Below are positions 1 to 4,971 of a stretch of 64,000 nucleotides of DNA, piece by piece (position 1 is the stretch's first letter; each line of letters starts with the position of its first letter). Source of the DNA: Meridianimarinicoccus roseus. Lineage in GTDB: Bacteria > Pseudomonadota > Alphaproteobacteria > Rhodobacterales > Rhodobacteraceae. Location of the stretch: the NCBI RefSeq assembly GCF_003172915.1, contig NZ_QGKU01000029.1:62001-126000 (forward strand). The letters are read 5' to 3'. The translations under genes were made by a program, and so were the position numbers. The notes beneath the pieces were generated by a model, which saw only the letters and a program-made list of their open reading frames with translations, searched no databases and was not told the DNA's origin.

Positions 1-1
1 C

Positions 2-385
2 AGCGGCGCCGACATCTGCGCCCTGCGCATCGGCAACGTGATCGAGCCGCACGAGTACGAAACCCTCTTCCCGTCCTTCTTCGCCGACCCGGACCAGCGC
101 CTGCGCAACGCGTTCTGCTACATCGACGCGCGCGACCTTGGCCAGATCGTCCACCTGTGCCTGACGACACCGGGCCTTGGCTACCAGGTGTTCAACGCCG
201 GAAATGACGGCAACTCGGTCGCGCTCACCACGCCCGAGATCATCGCGCGCTACTACCCGAACGTGCCGCTGACCCGCCCGATGGGCGAGAGCGAGGCGAT
301 CTATTCCAACGCGAAGATCCGCGAGGTGCTCGGCTTTGTGGAAGAGCATCCCTGGACCCGCTACGTCGCGGACCCCCGCGCCTAG
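2..385 (+). CDS. NAD-dependent epimerase/dehydratase family protein, C-terminal part (5' end outside window)
   Basis: An open frame runs from the left edge to a TAG stop and is continuous with the visible C-terminus, so the gene starts outside the window. The reading LRIGNVIEP, a Y-rich segment, DARDLGQIV and GYQVFNAGNDGNSV are typical of the C-terminal substrate-binding half of extended short-chain dehydrogenase/epimerase proteins; the Rossmann motif and the YxxxK catalytic pair would be upstream and are not seen. The substrate (often a nucleotide sugar) cannot be inferred. The stop overlaps the end of the convergent tag gene by 4 bp. Family assignment is fairly secure, specific function is not. 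Confidence 0.75.
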   Translation, partial: SGADICALRIGNVIEPHEYETLFPSFFADPDQRLRNAFCYIDARDLGQIVHLCLTTPGLGYQVFNAGNDGNSVALTTPEIIARYYPNVPLTRPMGESEAIYSNAKIREVLGFVEEHPWTRYVADPRA

Positions 386-996
386 GCCGCCGCGCCCGGC
401 GGCGTGAACGCCGCCCGCGCCGCCGCCGCCACGGGCCTCATCGCGCAGCCCTCCGCGTGCTCGTTCACCAGCCCCATCGCCTGAAGGAAGGCGTGCACCG
501 TCGTCGGCCCGACAAAGCGCCAGCCGCGCCGCTTCAGTTCGGCCGACAGCGCGACCGACGCGGGCGAGGTCGCGCGCACCGGCGCGGCGGGCCGGTCTTC
601 CTGCGGCTCGAAGGACCACACGAACGCCGCGAAAGACCCTTCCTCGGCCACCAGCGCGCGGCAGCGCACGGCATTGTTGATGACCGCGGCGATCTTGCCC
701 CGGTGCCGCACGATGCCCGCATCCGCCATCAGCCGCGCCACGTCGGTATCGTCGAACCGCGCCACCGCGTCGAAGTCGAACCCGGCGAAGGCTGTGCGGA
801 AATTCTCCCGCTTGGCGAGGATCGTGCGCCAGCTCAGCCCGGATTGGAAACTCTCAAGGCAGATCTTCTCGAACAGCCGCCGGTCGTCCGCCACCGGGAA
901 GCCCCACTCGGCGTCGTGATAGGCGAAGAACTCCGGCGCGGCGGCGCACCAGCCGCAGCGCGGTCGGCCGTCCGGGCCGGGCACCGTGCCGTTCAT
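382..996 (-). CDS. tag: DNA-3-methyladenine glycosylase I
   Basis: A 204-residue protein, close to the usual length of Tag. It excises 3-methyladenine from alkylated DNA in the cytoplasm as the first step of base-excision repair. Recognisable are the N-terminal RCGWC and YHDAEWGFP elements, LFEKICLESFQSGLSW (the helix-hairpin-helix region with the catalytic Glu), TILAKRENFRTAF, and the C-terminal VNEHAEGC. The RCGWC Cys residues plus the C-terminal His and Cys match the Tag zinc site. Its ATG overlaps the acylphosphatase TGA (ATGA), which implies translational coupling. Confidence 0.95.
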   Translation of the reverse strand: MNGTVPGPDGRPRCGWCAAAPEFFAYHDAEWGFPVADDRRLFEKICLESFQSGLSWRTILAKRENFRTAFAGFDFDAVARFDDTDVARLMADAGIVRHRGKIAAVINNAVRCRALVAEEGSFAAFVWSFEPQEDRPAAPVRATSPASVALSAELKRRGWRFVGPTTVHAFLQAMGLVNEHAEGCAMRPVAAAARAAFTPPGAAA

Positions 997-1268
997 CCGG
1001 TGATCTCGAACCCGTCCGTGCTGGGCGGCGGGGCGGGGGCGGTGGTCACGCTGTCCACGCGGGCGGCCTGCGGGCCGTCATGCAGCGCGGCGAGCATGGC
1101 CTGAACCGCCGCGCCGGGTCCATGCAGCAGCGCGGTGACCGATCCGTCCGCCTCGTTCCGAACCCAGCCGCTCAGACCCCGCGCGCGCGCCTCCGATTGC
1201 GTCCAGGCGCGGAAGAAAACGCCCTGCACCCTGCCGGTGATCGTTGCTGTCACTGTCATCTCGTCCAT
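993..1268 (-). CDS. acyP: acylphosphatase
   Basis: A 91-residue protein of normal acylphosphatase length that hydrolyses carboxyl-phosphate bonds such as acetyl phosphate. The signature GRVQGVFFRAW carries the catalytic Arg, and GWVRNEADGSV carries the catalytic Asn. The ATG at 1268 gives a product beginning MDEMTVTATITG; a second in-frame ATG three codons on (1259) is also possible. The longer open frame upstream has no family resemblance and is rejected. It forms a two-gene operon with tag through a 4-bp overlap. The 240 bp upstream (1269-1508) show no gene. Confidence 0.92.
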   Translation of the reverse strand: MDEMTVTATITGRVQGVFFRAWTQSEARARGLSGWVRNEADGSVTALLHGPGAAVQAMLAALHDGPQAARVDSVTTAPAPPPSTDGFEITG

Positions 1269-1508
1269 GTACCCAGCCTGCCAGAGCGCCCCGCGCCGGT
1301 CCACCCCACCGCGCGGGGGAAGGTCAGCGCAACCGGCCCCAGATGAACGCTCCGGTGATGCGGTGGTCCAGCGCTTCTGAGAAAGGTGCCAAGTGCGCTG
1401 GCTGCGGTGTTGCACCAAGGGCCGCGACCGGCCCGAGGGTGGGGGCGGTGAAACCGCGCCCGCCCTGGGGGGCGGGTCGGGCGCGGCCCGGCGTATCCGC
1501 CGGGCGGG

Positions 1509-2837
1509 TCATGCTTCGTCAAATGGGTCGGGGAAATGCGGCGGGGGCGGAGGAAATCGCTCCTGGCCAGCTTCGGGCTTGATAATGCTCTCATAGCACG
1601 TGCTCAGCCCGGCTTGGACGTTCTCGACCGATGATCCAAGAAGAACGGTCGCGCCAAGAAGCAGACCACCCCAAAGAGTTTTCGACGTAATCAACTCCGC
1701 GCTGCGCTCGCCCAAGCGACCGTAAAACGCATCGTGGAACAGCCGCCGTTTGTCGGGATCGCCGGTCGCCTTGTCCGCGTGTGCCGCCTGCAACCGACGG
1801 TTCAGGTACGAAATCGTCCTGGCCATCAGCGGCAATATCCGCATCAGTGCGGCTTCCTTCTCGGTCATCGGCGCATCGCCGTCGGCGGTTTCGGCGATCT
1901 GATGCAGGATGACCGGCAGGTTCTCCAGCGGCTGCAGGCAGTCCGGCAACTGGTTGCATACCTCCCGCCGATACTCGTCCACGGCGCGGTCGATCAGTTC
2001 GCGCAAGCCGTTTGCCTGCAGCACCGTGATTTGCGGACGAAGCAAAAGCACCTGCGCCTGCGCGCGCGCCGCTTCGGGCGGAATGGGCGCGAACTGGTTC
2101 TCGATCTCCGCAACCCGCTTGGCCACCTCTGCCGGTCCGGCCTGCCACACACCGTCCGGGATCAGCGCCACATCGCGTTGCAGCGCCCAGTCCATCGGCT
2201 GGCCGTCGAACATGCCGCGATACCAGCGAGCCCAGAAATCCCACTTGGCCGGGTCGGCATCGAGGAACCGCAGCAGCGAGGTGCGGCCCTTGGCCAGTCC
2301 TTCCGGTTCGTCGACGCTGCGCCAGACAGGTTCATTGAACAGGAGTTCCGGCGATTCGGCTGCCTCGACGCTAGCCACTGCATCCTGGTTGAAAGCAGAG
2401 AAGGCGTCGGGGACGGCGCGGGAGCCGACAGAGATGACGGGCGTCGGATTTGGATCAGAGGCCTCCAGGGTCACGGCACTACTGATCGCACGAGTGATGC
2501 TCTTGGTGGGGTTCATTCCTGCTGCGACGCGGGCTGCGTAATGCGAAATGGCTCCGGCGGACATTGCGGGGCGTGCACCAGAGAAATCTGCATTAACGGC
2601 ACGGCGTGCGGCGCTGCGGAGCCTGCTTTCTTGAGCAACCGGCGATGTGGCGCTTGCGCCAGCTACAAGAACCGCGCGGAACACGACCAAGACGAGACGC
2701 TCGCTTGTTTCGCCATCCGCAGCTCCCAATGCGGCGAGGCCGCGCAGCGCAATTCGCGCCGCCATCGCCACGCAGACCTGTTTCGGCTGCATCTCCAGCC
2801 AAGCCCGTGCGCCTTTTTCGTCCGTGATTTCGACCAT
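1509..2837 (-). CDS. unrecognised 442-residue protein with a C-terminal hydrophobic segment
   Basis: I do not recognise a named family. The start at 2837 ([16 protein letters not shown]) is chosen because an AGGG-rich ribosome-binding site precedes it; 64 in-frame codons further upstream read as non-protein-like sequence. The N-terminus forms a short Ala-rich helical module (residues 10-45). The middle has a Trp-rich block, [15 protein letters not shown], followed by [18 protein letters not shown] and a predicted helix. The C-terminal third is helical, then one hydrophobic stretch ([14 protein letters not shown]), then a Pro-rich tail. It resembles a soluble helical protein with one possible membrane anchor. 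It is transcribed divergently from lepA. Confidence 0.65.
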
Positions 2838-3044
2838 CGCCCGCCCTGCCTTCCGCGCCCACGCTAGGCGCAGGGGGCGCGTGGGCGCAAGCTGGCGCAT
2901 CGGTCCCGGCACGGGTCGCGCAGGGTGGGCAAGGTGGGTTTTCCCCGACCGCACCCCTGCCGTGCCTGCCGTCGCACGCCTCGCTCCCCGCGCGGCCCGT
3001 GTCTTCGCCGTCCGGCTTCGGTCAGCCACGGTGCCGCTTCGGAA

Positions 3045-3073
3045 TCATATGAAAGTCATATGGAATTCATATG
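3045..3073 (+). repeat. three TCATATG words on an exact 11-bp period in the lepA upstream region
   Basis: The heptamer TCATATG occurs at 3045-3051, 3056-3062 and 3067-3073, so the palindromic core CATATG repeats every 11 bp, about one helical turn. The 4-bp spacers are A/G/T-rich. This AT-rich cluster stands out in otherwise GC-rich DNA and lies in the 331-bp divergent intergenic region, about 95 bp before the lepA start. The geometry suggests an oligomeric DNA-binding protein site on one helix face; no known regulator is assigned. Confidence 0.6.
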
Positions 3074-3168
3074 CGAGTCCTACGGGCCTCGAGCGGGAGG
3101 CGCCCACCGCCTTTATGCGCTTTGCACGGCCATTGACTGCCCCGCGAAACAGCCGCATATCCCCCTGC

Positions 3169-4971
3169 ATGACCGATCTCGCACATATCCGGAACTTCTC
3201 CATCGTCGCCCATATCGACCACGGGAAATCCACCCTGGCCGACCGGCTGATCCAGCTCACCGGCACCGTCGCCGAACGCGACATGCAGGAGCAACTCCTT
3301 GATTCCATGGATATCGAGCGGGAACGCGGGATCACGATCAAGGCCAACACCGTGCGGATCGAGTATCCGGCGAAGGACGGGCACACCTACGTGCTGAACC
3401 TGATCGACACGCCGGGCCATGTGGATTTCGGCTACGAGGTGTCGCGATCGATGCAGGCCGTGGAAGGCTCGCTTCTGGTGGTGGACGCGTCCCAGGGGGT
3501 GGAGGCGCAGACCCTCGCCAATGTTTACCAAGCCATTGAAGCGGATCATGAAATTGTCCCCGTTCTGAACAAGGTGGACCTGCCGGCCGCCGATCCCGAC
3601 CGCGTCCGCGAACAGATAGAGGACGTCATCGGCATCGAGGCGCATGACGCGGTGGAGATCTCGGCCAAGACCGGCATCGGGATTCCGGACGTTCTGGAAG
3701 CTATCGTCACCCGGCTGCCGCCGCCCCGCACAGGTGACCGCGACGCGCCGCTGAAAGCGATGCTGGTGGATAGCAAGTACGACAGCTATCTCGGGGTCAT
3801 CGTGATCGTCCGGATCATCGACGGCGTTCTGAAGAAGGGCGACCGCATCCGCATGATGAAAACGGGCGGCACCTACGACGTGGACGACGTGGGTATCTAC
3901 CGCCCCGCCATGACCGCCGTGAAGGAGCTTGGCCCGGGCGAGATCGGCTATCTGAACGCGTCGATCAAGCAGGTCCGCGACACCCGCGTCGGCGACACGA
4001 TCACCCACGAAAAGAAGCCCTGCGCCACGGCGCTGCCGGGCTTCAAGCCCTCCGTCCCAGTTGTGTTCTGCGGCCTTTTCCCTGTGGACAGTTCCGAGTT
4101 CGAGGACATGCGTTCGGCCATCGAGAAGCTGGCGCTGAACGACGCCTCCTTCAGTTTCGAGATGGAAACCTCCGCCGCGCTCGGCTTCGGGTTCCGCTGC
4201 GGCTTCCTGGGCCTGCTGCACCTGGAGGTGATCCGTGACCGGATCGAACGGGAATACGATATCGAGCTGATCACCACGGCACCGTCGGTCGTCTACCACC
4301 TTCACATGAAGGATGGCGAGATGAAGGAGTTGCACAACCCCGCCGACATGCCCGACATGACCTATGTCGACCATATCGAAGAGCCACGCATCAAGGCGAC
4401 GATCCTCGTGCCGGACGAATACCTCGGCGACGTGCTGAAGCTCTGCCAGGAACGGCGCGGCATCCAGCTTGACCTGACATATGCCGGCAGCCGCGCGATG
4501 GCGGTGTACGACCTGCCGCTGAACGAGGTGGTGTTCGACTTCTACGACCGGCTGAAATCGGTGACCAAGGGCTATGCGTCCTTCGATTACCAGATGGAAG
4601 GCTACCGCGAGGACGCGCTGGTCAAGATGCAGATCCTCGTCAATGATGAACCCGTGGACGCGCTGTCGATGATGGTGCACCGGGACAGGGCCGAACAGCG
4701 CGGGCGCGCCATGTGCGAGAAGCTGAAGGAGCTGATTCCGCGCCACATGTTCAAGATCCCGATCCAGGCGGCGATCGGCGGGCGGGTGATCGCGCGCGAG
4801 ACGCTGAGCGCGATGCGTAAGGACGTGACGGCCAAGTGCTATGGGGGCGACGCGACCCGCAAGCGCAAGCTGTTGGACAAGCAAAAGGCCGGCAAGAAGA
4901 AGATGCGCCAGTTCGGCAAGGTCGAGATCCCGCAGCAGGCGTTCATCTCGGCACTGAAAATGGACAGCTGA
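3169..4971 (+). CDS. lepA: elongation factor 4 (LepA), ribosome-associated GTPase
   Basis: A 600-residue protein, the normal LepA length. It is a translational GTPase that acts on stalled or misinitiated ribosomes. The GTPase motifs are in order: AHIDHGKST (G1, residues 14-22), RGITIKANT (G2), DTPGH (G3), NKVD (G4) and SAKTG (G5). The C-terminal domain specific to LepA ends with [19 protein letters not shown] and IPQQAFI. The start at 3169 ([13 protein letters not shown]) matches family N-termini, though no strong Shine-Dalgarno precedes it; an in-frame ATG at 3115 is the alternative. A hairpin terminator follows directly. Confidence 0.97.

Follow-up and report, generated by a model that had tools for sequence, protein, structure and literature searches.

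Polar 11-bp repeat arrays at inherited chromosomal places point to an undescribed DNA-marking system in the Rhodobacteraceae

The stretch of Meridianimarinicoccus roseus DNA analysed here, hereafter the window, is 64,000 nucleotides long and carries, between lepA and a divergent gene for a 442-residue protein, a short head-to-tail array of 11-bp units (Table 1). An earlier sequence-only reading of this DNA had pointed to three TCATATG words at an exact 11-bp step before lepA, and the word scan bore this out; a degenerate fourth unit, TCCTACG, follows them in register. TCATATG on its own is no great rarity in the window (5 matches, 1.96 expected, about 2.5-fold), such that the signal lies in the phasing and not in the word count. 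The stretch matching the probable lepA promoter is partly conserved in Rhodovulum marinum, where the left neighbour of the array (L132) encodes a protein that appears, by eye, similar to the 442-aa protein of the window. The Rfam search returned no family at the window array, its sole match falling inside lepA and far under its gathering score.

Table 1. Features at the lepA locus, in window coordinates.
Feature	Position	Strand	Remark
Four-unit head-to-tail 11-bp array TCATATGAAAG TCATATGGAAT TCATATGCGAG TCCTACGGGCC	3045..3088	+	44 bp; four is the modal length in the window genome
Unit 1 core, TCATATG	3045..3051	+	word scan
Unit 2 core, TCATATG	3056..3062	+	word scan
Unit 3 core, TCATATG	3067..3073	+	word scan
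Unit 4, degenerate core, TCCTACG	3078..3084	+	same form at array edges genome-wide
Probable lepA promoter, TTGACT-17 bp-CATATC	3133..3161	+	by eye; 3' of the array and outside it
lepA (elongation factor 4), 600 aa	3169..4971	+	Pfam LepA_C 2.7e-50; start 92 bp past the three-word core
Divergent gene, 442 aa	1509..2837	-	no Pfam match
Window share of the 5'-side strand-composition footprint	1..3044	.	array-strand GC skew slightly negative left, positive right

The array at lepA is one of about 25 in the window genome (G000; 4.29 Mb in 69 contigs), where TCATATG-N4-TCATATG is found at 28 places and its reversed control at none. When any gap of 0-30 bp is allowed, 31 of 31 TCATATG pairs stand in the 11-bp register, the step being 11 bp in 28 of them and 22 bp, enclosing a degenerate unit, in the other 3, with no pair at another spacing and no match to the reversed pattern; the degenerate units that flank the pairs are TCCTACG, TCATACG, and TCCGACA. 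The arrays are therefore not at random frequency across the genome; a random frequency had been named in advance as an outcome that would refute a binding array. Sixteen of the 24 arrays measured have four units, four have three, and four have five; in one of the 25 loci fetched, L160, the regular expression matched no array. Four units is also the modal length in 9 of the 12 groups tabulated, with three in G101 and G103 and five in G135. The unit is directional, TCATATG-n-G-A-n (positions 1-7 of this consensus are biased by the patterns used for array finding), so the palindromic core is not essential. The perfect CATATG palindrome noted in the first reading is indeed present at lepA, but it is incidental, since the same arrays in other genera are built of non-palindromic units such as TCATACA and CCATACG.

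Among 60 relatives scanned, the TCATATG pair occurs 40 times in G002, of the same genus, and 21 times in G025, and in none of the other 58; the same-genus genomes G003-G006 (near-complete) and G001 (incomplete) lack it. G006 nevertheless carries, at a shared site, a variant array of TCCTACA: in its photolyase-like gene TCCTACAAGACTCCTACAAAAATCATACA occupies the place of the array; TCCTACA pairs recur across this genome (8 against 0 reversed). Searching named genomes for three units in a row gave at least 112 loci, and among the matches listed were Rhodovulum marinum, R. steppense, Actibacterium pelagium, Maritimibacter, Marinosulfonomonas, and Phycocomes; the carriers thus include the named isolates R. 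marinum, R. steppense, A. pelagium, and Phycocomes zhengii. The same scan also matched other phyla, in which the matches resemble local tandem repeats. Before contexts were counted, 29 of the 112 named-genome loci and 4 viral loci were dropped as non-Rhodobacteraceae on the strength of their titles or of how the array looked, including one titled Rhodospirillaceae and all of the MAG CALZTP; L096, titled Pseudodesulfovibrio, was retained, as its array and neighbours look rhodobacterial.

The scan for 11-bp-phased arrays that had been proposed, genome-wide and in relatives, turned up many copies in the window genome and, among 149 Rhodobacteraceae genera, arrays in at least 18 (three wider patterns, one genome per genus, a genus being counted positive at three or more matches and at least 5× the reversed control). 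The positive genera are represented by G000, G017, G025, G078, G079, G097, G101, G103, G104, G121, G125, G135, G146, G160, G161, G165, G175, and G176. The units are lineage-specific and include TCATATG, TCATACA, CCATACG, CCATATGGATT, CCATACCCGAA, GTGCACG, ATGTACG, and ACATACG. A pattern specific to G103 gave 20 matches against 0 in the control; for GTGCACG the reversed control is not independent, as the same arrays can match it (G024, 11 against 10; also G136). With the three patterns used, the remaining 131 genera gave no clear array, and either the system was lost often or their dialect falls outside these patterns. In G101, the arrays (L270-L289, for example L275 near 4036) often have inverted units upstream and a conserved tail (...CCCACTTTTCAGAGGCTTAG), such that the element of this genome is longer than the array.

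The places of the arrays were compared through 8-kb contexts of 100 arrays sampled from eight more genomes, whose nearest genes were clustered with those of the earlier loci; gene order rests on our own composition-based gene calls and is approximate. Counting duplicates, there are 222 array loci, of which 74 have a neighbour gene in common with an array of another genus. As some sharing of neighbours is expected by chance, the arrangement was used as the test: in 69 of 85 cross-genus shared-neighbour pairs the gene lies on the same side and strand, in 1 it is mirrored, and in 15 it is placed otherwise, against one quarter expected by chance for the same arrangement (p about 2e-27). Place and polarity are thus conserved across genera despite differing units. 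At gltD, the array lies 8-40 bp off the 3' end in seven of eight genomes and at 0 bp in the eighth, is written in several dialects, and points into the gene, antisense to it, in all eight. Inside valS it sits 823-846 bp ahead of the stop codon in four genomes; upstream of serS it is found at 84-93 bp in three, and upstream of lpd at 31-47 bp in four genomes, a fifth having it across the predicted start. For lepA, the distance is 92 bp in the window genome and 101 bp in R. marinum, with the array kept and the flanks diverged. The argG arrays are an exception, with opposite polarity in G000 and G175.

Within coding sequence, the array appears as an insertion. In the photolyase-like gene it amounts to 7-8 aa, and it is present, in variant spelling, in the sister species G006. 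In an alignment of the valS loop from 30 genomes (plus the named locus L120, a second copy of the G025 gene record), the G000 array stands out as an insertion that G025 shares, while the loops of G007, G016, and G024 hold different 11-bp tandem repeats. By context, the arrays of G000 are tandem-sense in 13 cases, inside genes in sense in 3, divergent in 5, convergent in 2, and tandem-antisense in 1, a strong sense orientation (16 against 1). Those of R. marinum (tandem-sense 5, inside 1, tandem-antisense 5, convergent 9, divergent 3, contig end 1) have no such bias (6 against 5).

The arrays also mark a step in strand composition. In 188 of 212 loci the array strand has less G than C, and the general pattern is a GC skew that is negative for several kb 5' of the array and gone within about 3 kb on its 3' side. 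The mean profile runs at about -0.07 to -0.08 from -4 to -1.5 kb and at -0.05 to -0.06 in the last kb, is still -0.08 just past the array, and comes near zero from +2.5 kb. At third codon positions the shift, estimated from figures, is about -0.15 on the left for genes on both strands and, more than 3 kb to the right, about -0.01. The one-sided footprint is present in all 14 groups tabulated; the left is more negative than the right in 112 of 142 loci with sufficient flank and in 22 of 24 in G000 (in the skew counts, ten named Phycocomes loci were left out as duplicates of G002 loci). Array-free 8-kb segments oriented by their own skew lack the effect (81 of 153 and 37 of 88). Over ±20 kb around ten G000 arrays, the skew is near -0.04 over the 7.5 kb left of the array, near -0.01 between -7.5 and -15 kb, and close to zero beyond +2.5 kb on the 3' side; one of the ten (C43) has positive skew on both sides. 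Around the window array, the skew is slightly below zero over 10 kb on the left and slightly above it over 10 kb on the right. GC content has no overall difference between left and right, and the k-mer asymmetry is broad and does not come from one motif. When valS loci with and without arrays were compared, the skew followed as a trend (p = 0.075), with G007 as a clear exception.

On long contigs, array polarity appears to go with the skew of the contig: on contig C5 of G175 (1.04 Mb) the skew reverses near 400 kb and the polarity of the arrays reverses with it (10 of 10), and on contig C1 of G103 (2.8 Mb) polarity agrees with contig skew in six of seven arrays. Replichore polarity as a full account of the skew was rejected, because the profile is asymmetric about the array and in G000 the skew has no polarity beyond about 10 kb. 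A polar fork barrier of the Tus-Ter kind was rejected as well, because the skew rises from negative values left of the array to about zero right of it, a sign opposite to that of termination. The step at the arrays has instead the sign of an origin, but it is mainly one-sided and several kb long in G000; a fork, or single-strand exposure, leaving the array on its 5' side would give this sign, which suggests a polar, fork-like process.

The arrays are dispersed, polar, and strict in register, they stand at inherited places, and their unit has been rewritten in concert in each lineage. The strict register, the genome-wide copies, and the conserved place and polarity together support well the idea of an evolved binding array, and with it the suggestion, made from the lepA sequence, of one-turn phasing for a cooperative or oligomeric protein; the companion suggestion of an operator or bent promoter for lepA or its divergent neighbour did not survive, as arrays in convergent gaps, in coding sequence, and genome-wide are not lepA operators. 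We favour, at a little better than even confidence, a set of oriented chromosomal sites of about four units each, with a predicted dedicated head-to-tail DNA-binding protein and a chromosome-wide job, a reading built on the register, copy number, dialects, place and polarity, and composition footprint observed. Most likely, the arrays are read by a protein that forms a head-to-tail filament and serves chromosome maintenance. One subunit of this candidate protein would bind each 11-bp unit, head to tail along one face of the helix, building a short polar filament, and its orthologues would drift in specificity, giving one unit dialect per lineage while the sites stay put. Its job would probably be related to replication, segregation, or repair across the chromosome and not to regulation of the adjacent gene, and the composition step suggests that a strand-asymmetric process may leave the array toward its 5' side. 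An effect on neighbouring promoters may exist, but it cannot be the main role given the places of the arrays. Some observations stand against this chromosome-wide reading: the 15 of 85 pairs in which side and strand are not kept and the argG polarity, the sense bias of G000, which a purely chromosome-level role does not require, the genera without a clear array with the patterns used, and the valS comparison that reaches only a trend. A search for the reader among gene clusters common to at least three genomes did not find it: judged by eye, a cold-shock protein gene is the single one there likely to bind nucleic acid, and nothing ties it to the arrays.

A more specific form of the idea, which we consider quite unlikely, is that tens of polar, initiator-like arrays launch replication or restart forks toward the 5' side of the array. 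A dedicated head-to-tail initiator or loader protein would then read the arrays, its specificity drifting between lineages such that each has its own dialect at inherited sites, and the one-sided, origin-type skew step would be the mutational trace of the forks. DnaA boxes in oriC and the iterons of plasmids and phages resemble the arrays in being head-to-tail, with a period near 11 bp, and perhaps in an origin-like composition step; they differ in being confined to one locus per replicon, with a conserved or replicon-specific box, whereas the arrays have many chromosomal copies.

Direct repeats of the form 6-N5-6 at 11 bp are typical of the OmpR/PhoB class, and the array period fits its tandem 6-bp half-sites with 5-bp spacers. 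The arrays might accordingly be operators of a large regulon, on whose adjacent promoters a response regulator of this type acts, and many do lie 20-200 bp before a start codon, as at lepA (92-101 bp) and serS (84-93 bp). We hold this to be unlikely, as arrays also occupy convergent gaps, the 3' end of gltD, and the interiors of valS and the photolyase-like gene, the neighbours are mixed housekeeping genes, and a regulator leaves unexplained a composition footprint of several kb that is independent of gene strand. The operators of PhoB, PmrA, PhoP, and CtrA share with the arrays the 11-bp head-to-tail direct repeats and directional recognition, but operators of this family usually consist of two half-sites at promoters of a coherent regulon; we know of no lineage-wide dialect change at conserved non-promoter places and of no composition footprint for them. 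PhoP, PmrA, and AgrA are named as regulators binding direct repeats in PMC5859096. That both polarities to genes occur, convergent gaps included, argues against a promoter role and equally against an element acting on the transcript, in a leader or 3' UTR. The latter would suit the 16 to 1 sense bias of G000, but R. marinum has none, the gltD array is antisense in all eight genomes, and no Rfam family matched at the array; an RNA-level role is extremely improbable and was rejected on the antisense and convergent copies outside G000. A chance repeat or intrinsically bent lepA promoter DNA without wider meaning, for which the modest excess of the single word in the window could be invoked, is practically negligible in probability: the counts across the genome and the family and the lepA copy of R. 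marinum refute chance, and the genome-wide copies and non-promoter places rule out the lepA operator or bent promoter.

Two further explanations take the arrays as traces of DNA transfer or of repeat mobility. As pac-like packaging-initiation sites of the gene transfer agent (GTA) that is common among the Rhodobacteraceae, their polarity and one-sidedness would be natural, and one-sided headful packaging followed by single-strand uptake could leave a 5' footprint of about two 4-kb headfuls; the GTA marker PF13547 is found in 129 of 149 genera, and GTA DNA of Dinoroseobacter has, according to a review, discrete packaging peaks (PMC11841831). However, array-rich G101 and G125, both 99% complete, have no PF13547 match, which disfavours a packaging role, the PF13547 gene copy of G024 carries two stops, the GTA small terminase of R. 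capsulatus is reported to be without a specific DNA-binding domain (PMC6854486), and the coverage peaks are described as symmetrical (PMC11841831), such that we regard this explanation as very improbable. As a separate observation, G070, G123, G131, G140, and G173 have three to seven PF13547 (GTA_TIM) matches each. The remaining explanation is a dispersed repeat, passive or selfish, comparable to REP or the Rickettsia palindromic element and settled in intergenic gaps and tolerant loops. The arrays are indeed insertions when the photolyase-like gene and valS are set against those of array-free relatives, and the G101 copies have extended flanks in common. Yet the places are not unrelated between lineages, side and polarity being held in 69 of the 85 cross-genus pairs; a neutral insertion would decay and not be rewritten in register, whereas here the unit changes and the place stays; the arrays are short, direct, and fixed near four units; and plasmids and phages gave chance-level matches only (two plasmid queries, one phage query). 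We rate a mobile or selfish repeat as distinctly improbable.

The chromosome-wide reading favoured here has partial counterparts in known systems. KOPS, Chi, AIMS, and DNA uptake sequences are likewise oriented chromosomal motifs in many copies, and uptake sequences are also dialectal, but these are single short motifs in hundreds to thousands of copies, whereas the arrays number 10-100 with four units each at conserved places. The nucleoid-occlusion and anchoring sites of Noc (NBS), SlmA (SBS), RacA (RAM), and MatP (matS) are similar in that tens of dispersed sites serve one chromosome-management protein; they differ in being palindromic single sites of conserved sequence, and to our knowledge they have no one-sided strand footprint. 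BldC and RdfS are winged-helix proteins that form head-to-tail filaments on direct repeats (PMC5859096, PMC11963761), and by analogy they indicate that filaments of the kind predicted here can exist: an asymmetric head-to-tail oligomer on tandem sites, polar, would be shared with the arrays. BldC differs in binding 9-bp repeats at promoters (PMC5859096), against the 11-bp arrays here, and RdfS in acting at the attP of an ICE (PMC11963761), and in the parts of these two papers drawn on here neither protein is described as having a chromosome-wide dispersed set of sites.

A description of these arrays was not found in the open-access full-text literature, which is weak evidence of novelty, and the arrays point to an undescribed chromosome-wide DNA-marking system in the Rhodobacteraceae. 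Polar sites that keep their position and change their dialect imply a protein system at the scale of the chromosome in a family that is abundant in the sea. Through the local shift in strand composition at every site, a DNA element can be linked, directly and testably, to a strand-asymmetric process away from oriC, such as replication restart, translocation, or transfer, and the dialects provide a natural series for the co-change of a DNA-binding protein and its dozens of sites.

Arrays with the same period were also seen beyond the Rhodobacteraceae chromosomes counted above. The MAG CALZTP holds many 11-bp arrays, often longer, of TCATATGTAAG and TCATATGCTGG (L040, L042, L055, L060, L064, L079, L081, L115, L117, and L137), possibly an independent case beyond the family. 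Exact-pattern scans of viral contigs found such arrays in 4, 7, 15, and 17 contigs, and they look unrelated to the host arrays. In the phage contigs L448, L451, L452, L454, L457, L459, L460, and L461, 11-bp arrays of GTGCACG stand next to ggttattggttaggtgacc-type repeats; the array of L460 falls within a gene for 260 aa (3280-4062, reverse strand) near a gene that by eye is DnaC-like (2481-3305, reverse strand), an arrangement that looks like the iterons of a phage replication origin within the initiator gene. The AT-rich phage contigs L464, L466, L468, L470, L474, and L478 have TCATACGCTTT-type 11-bp arrays in common, and these end in a TCAAAAGGTGT-like stretch located 5' of a structural-looking gene region.
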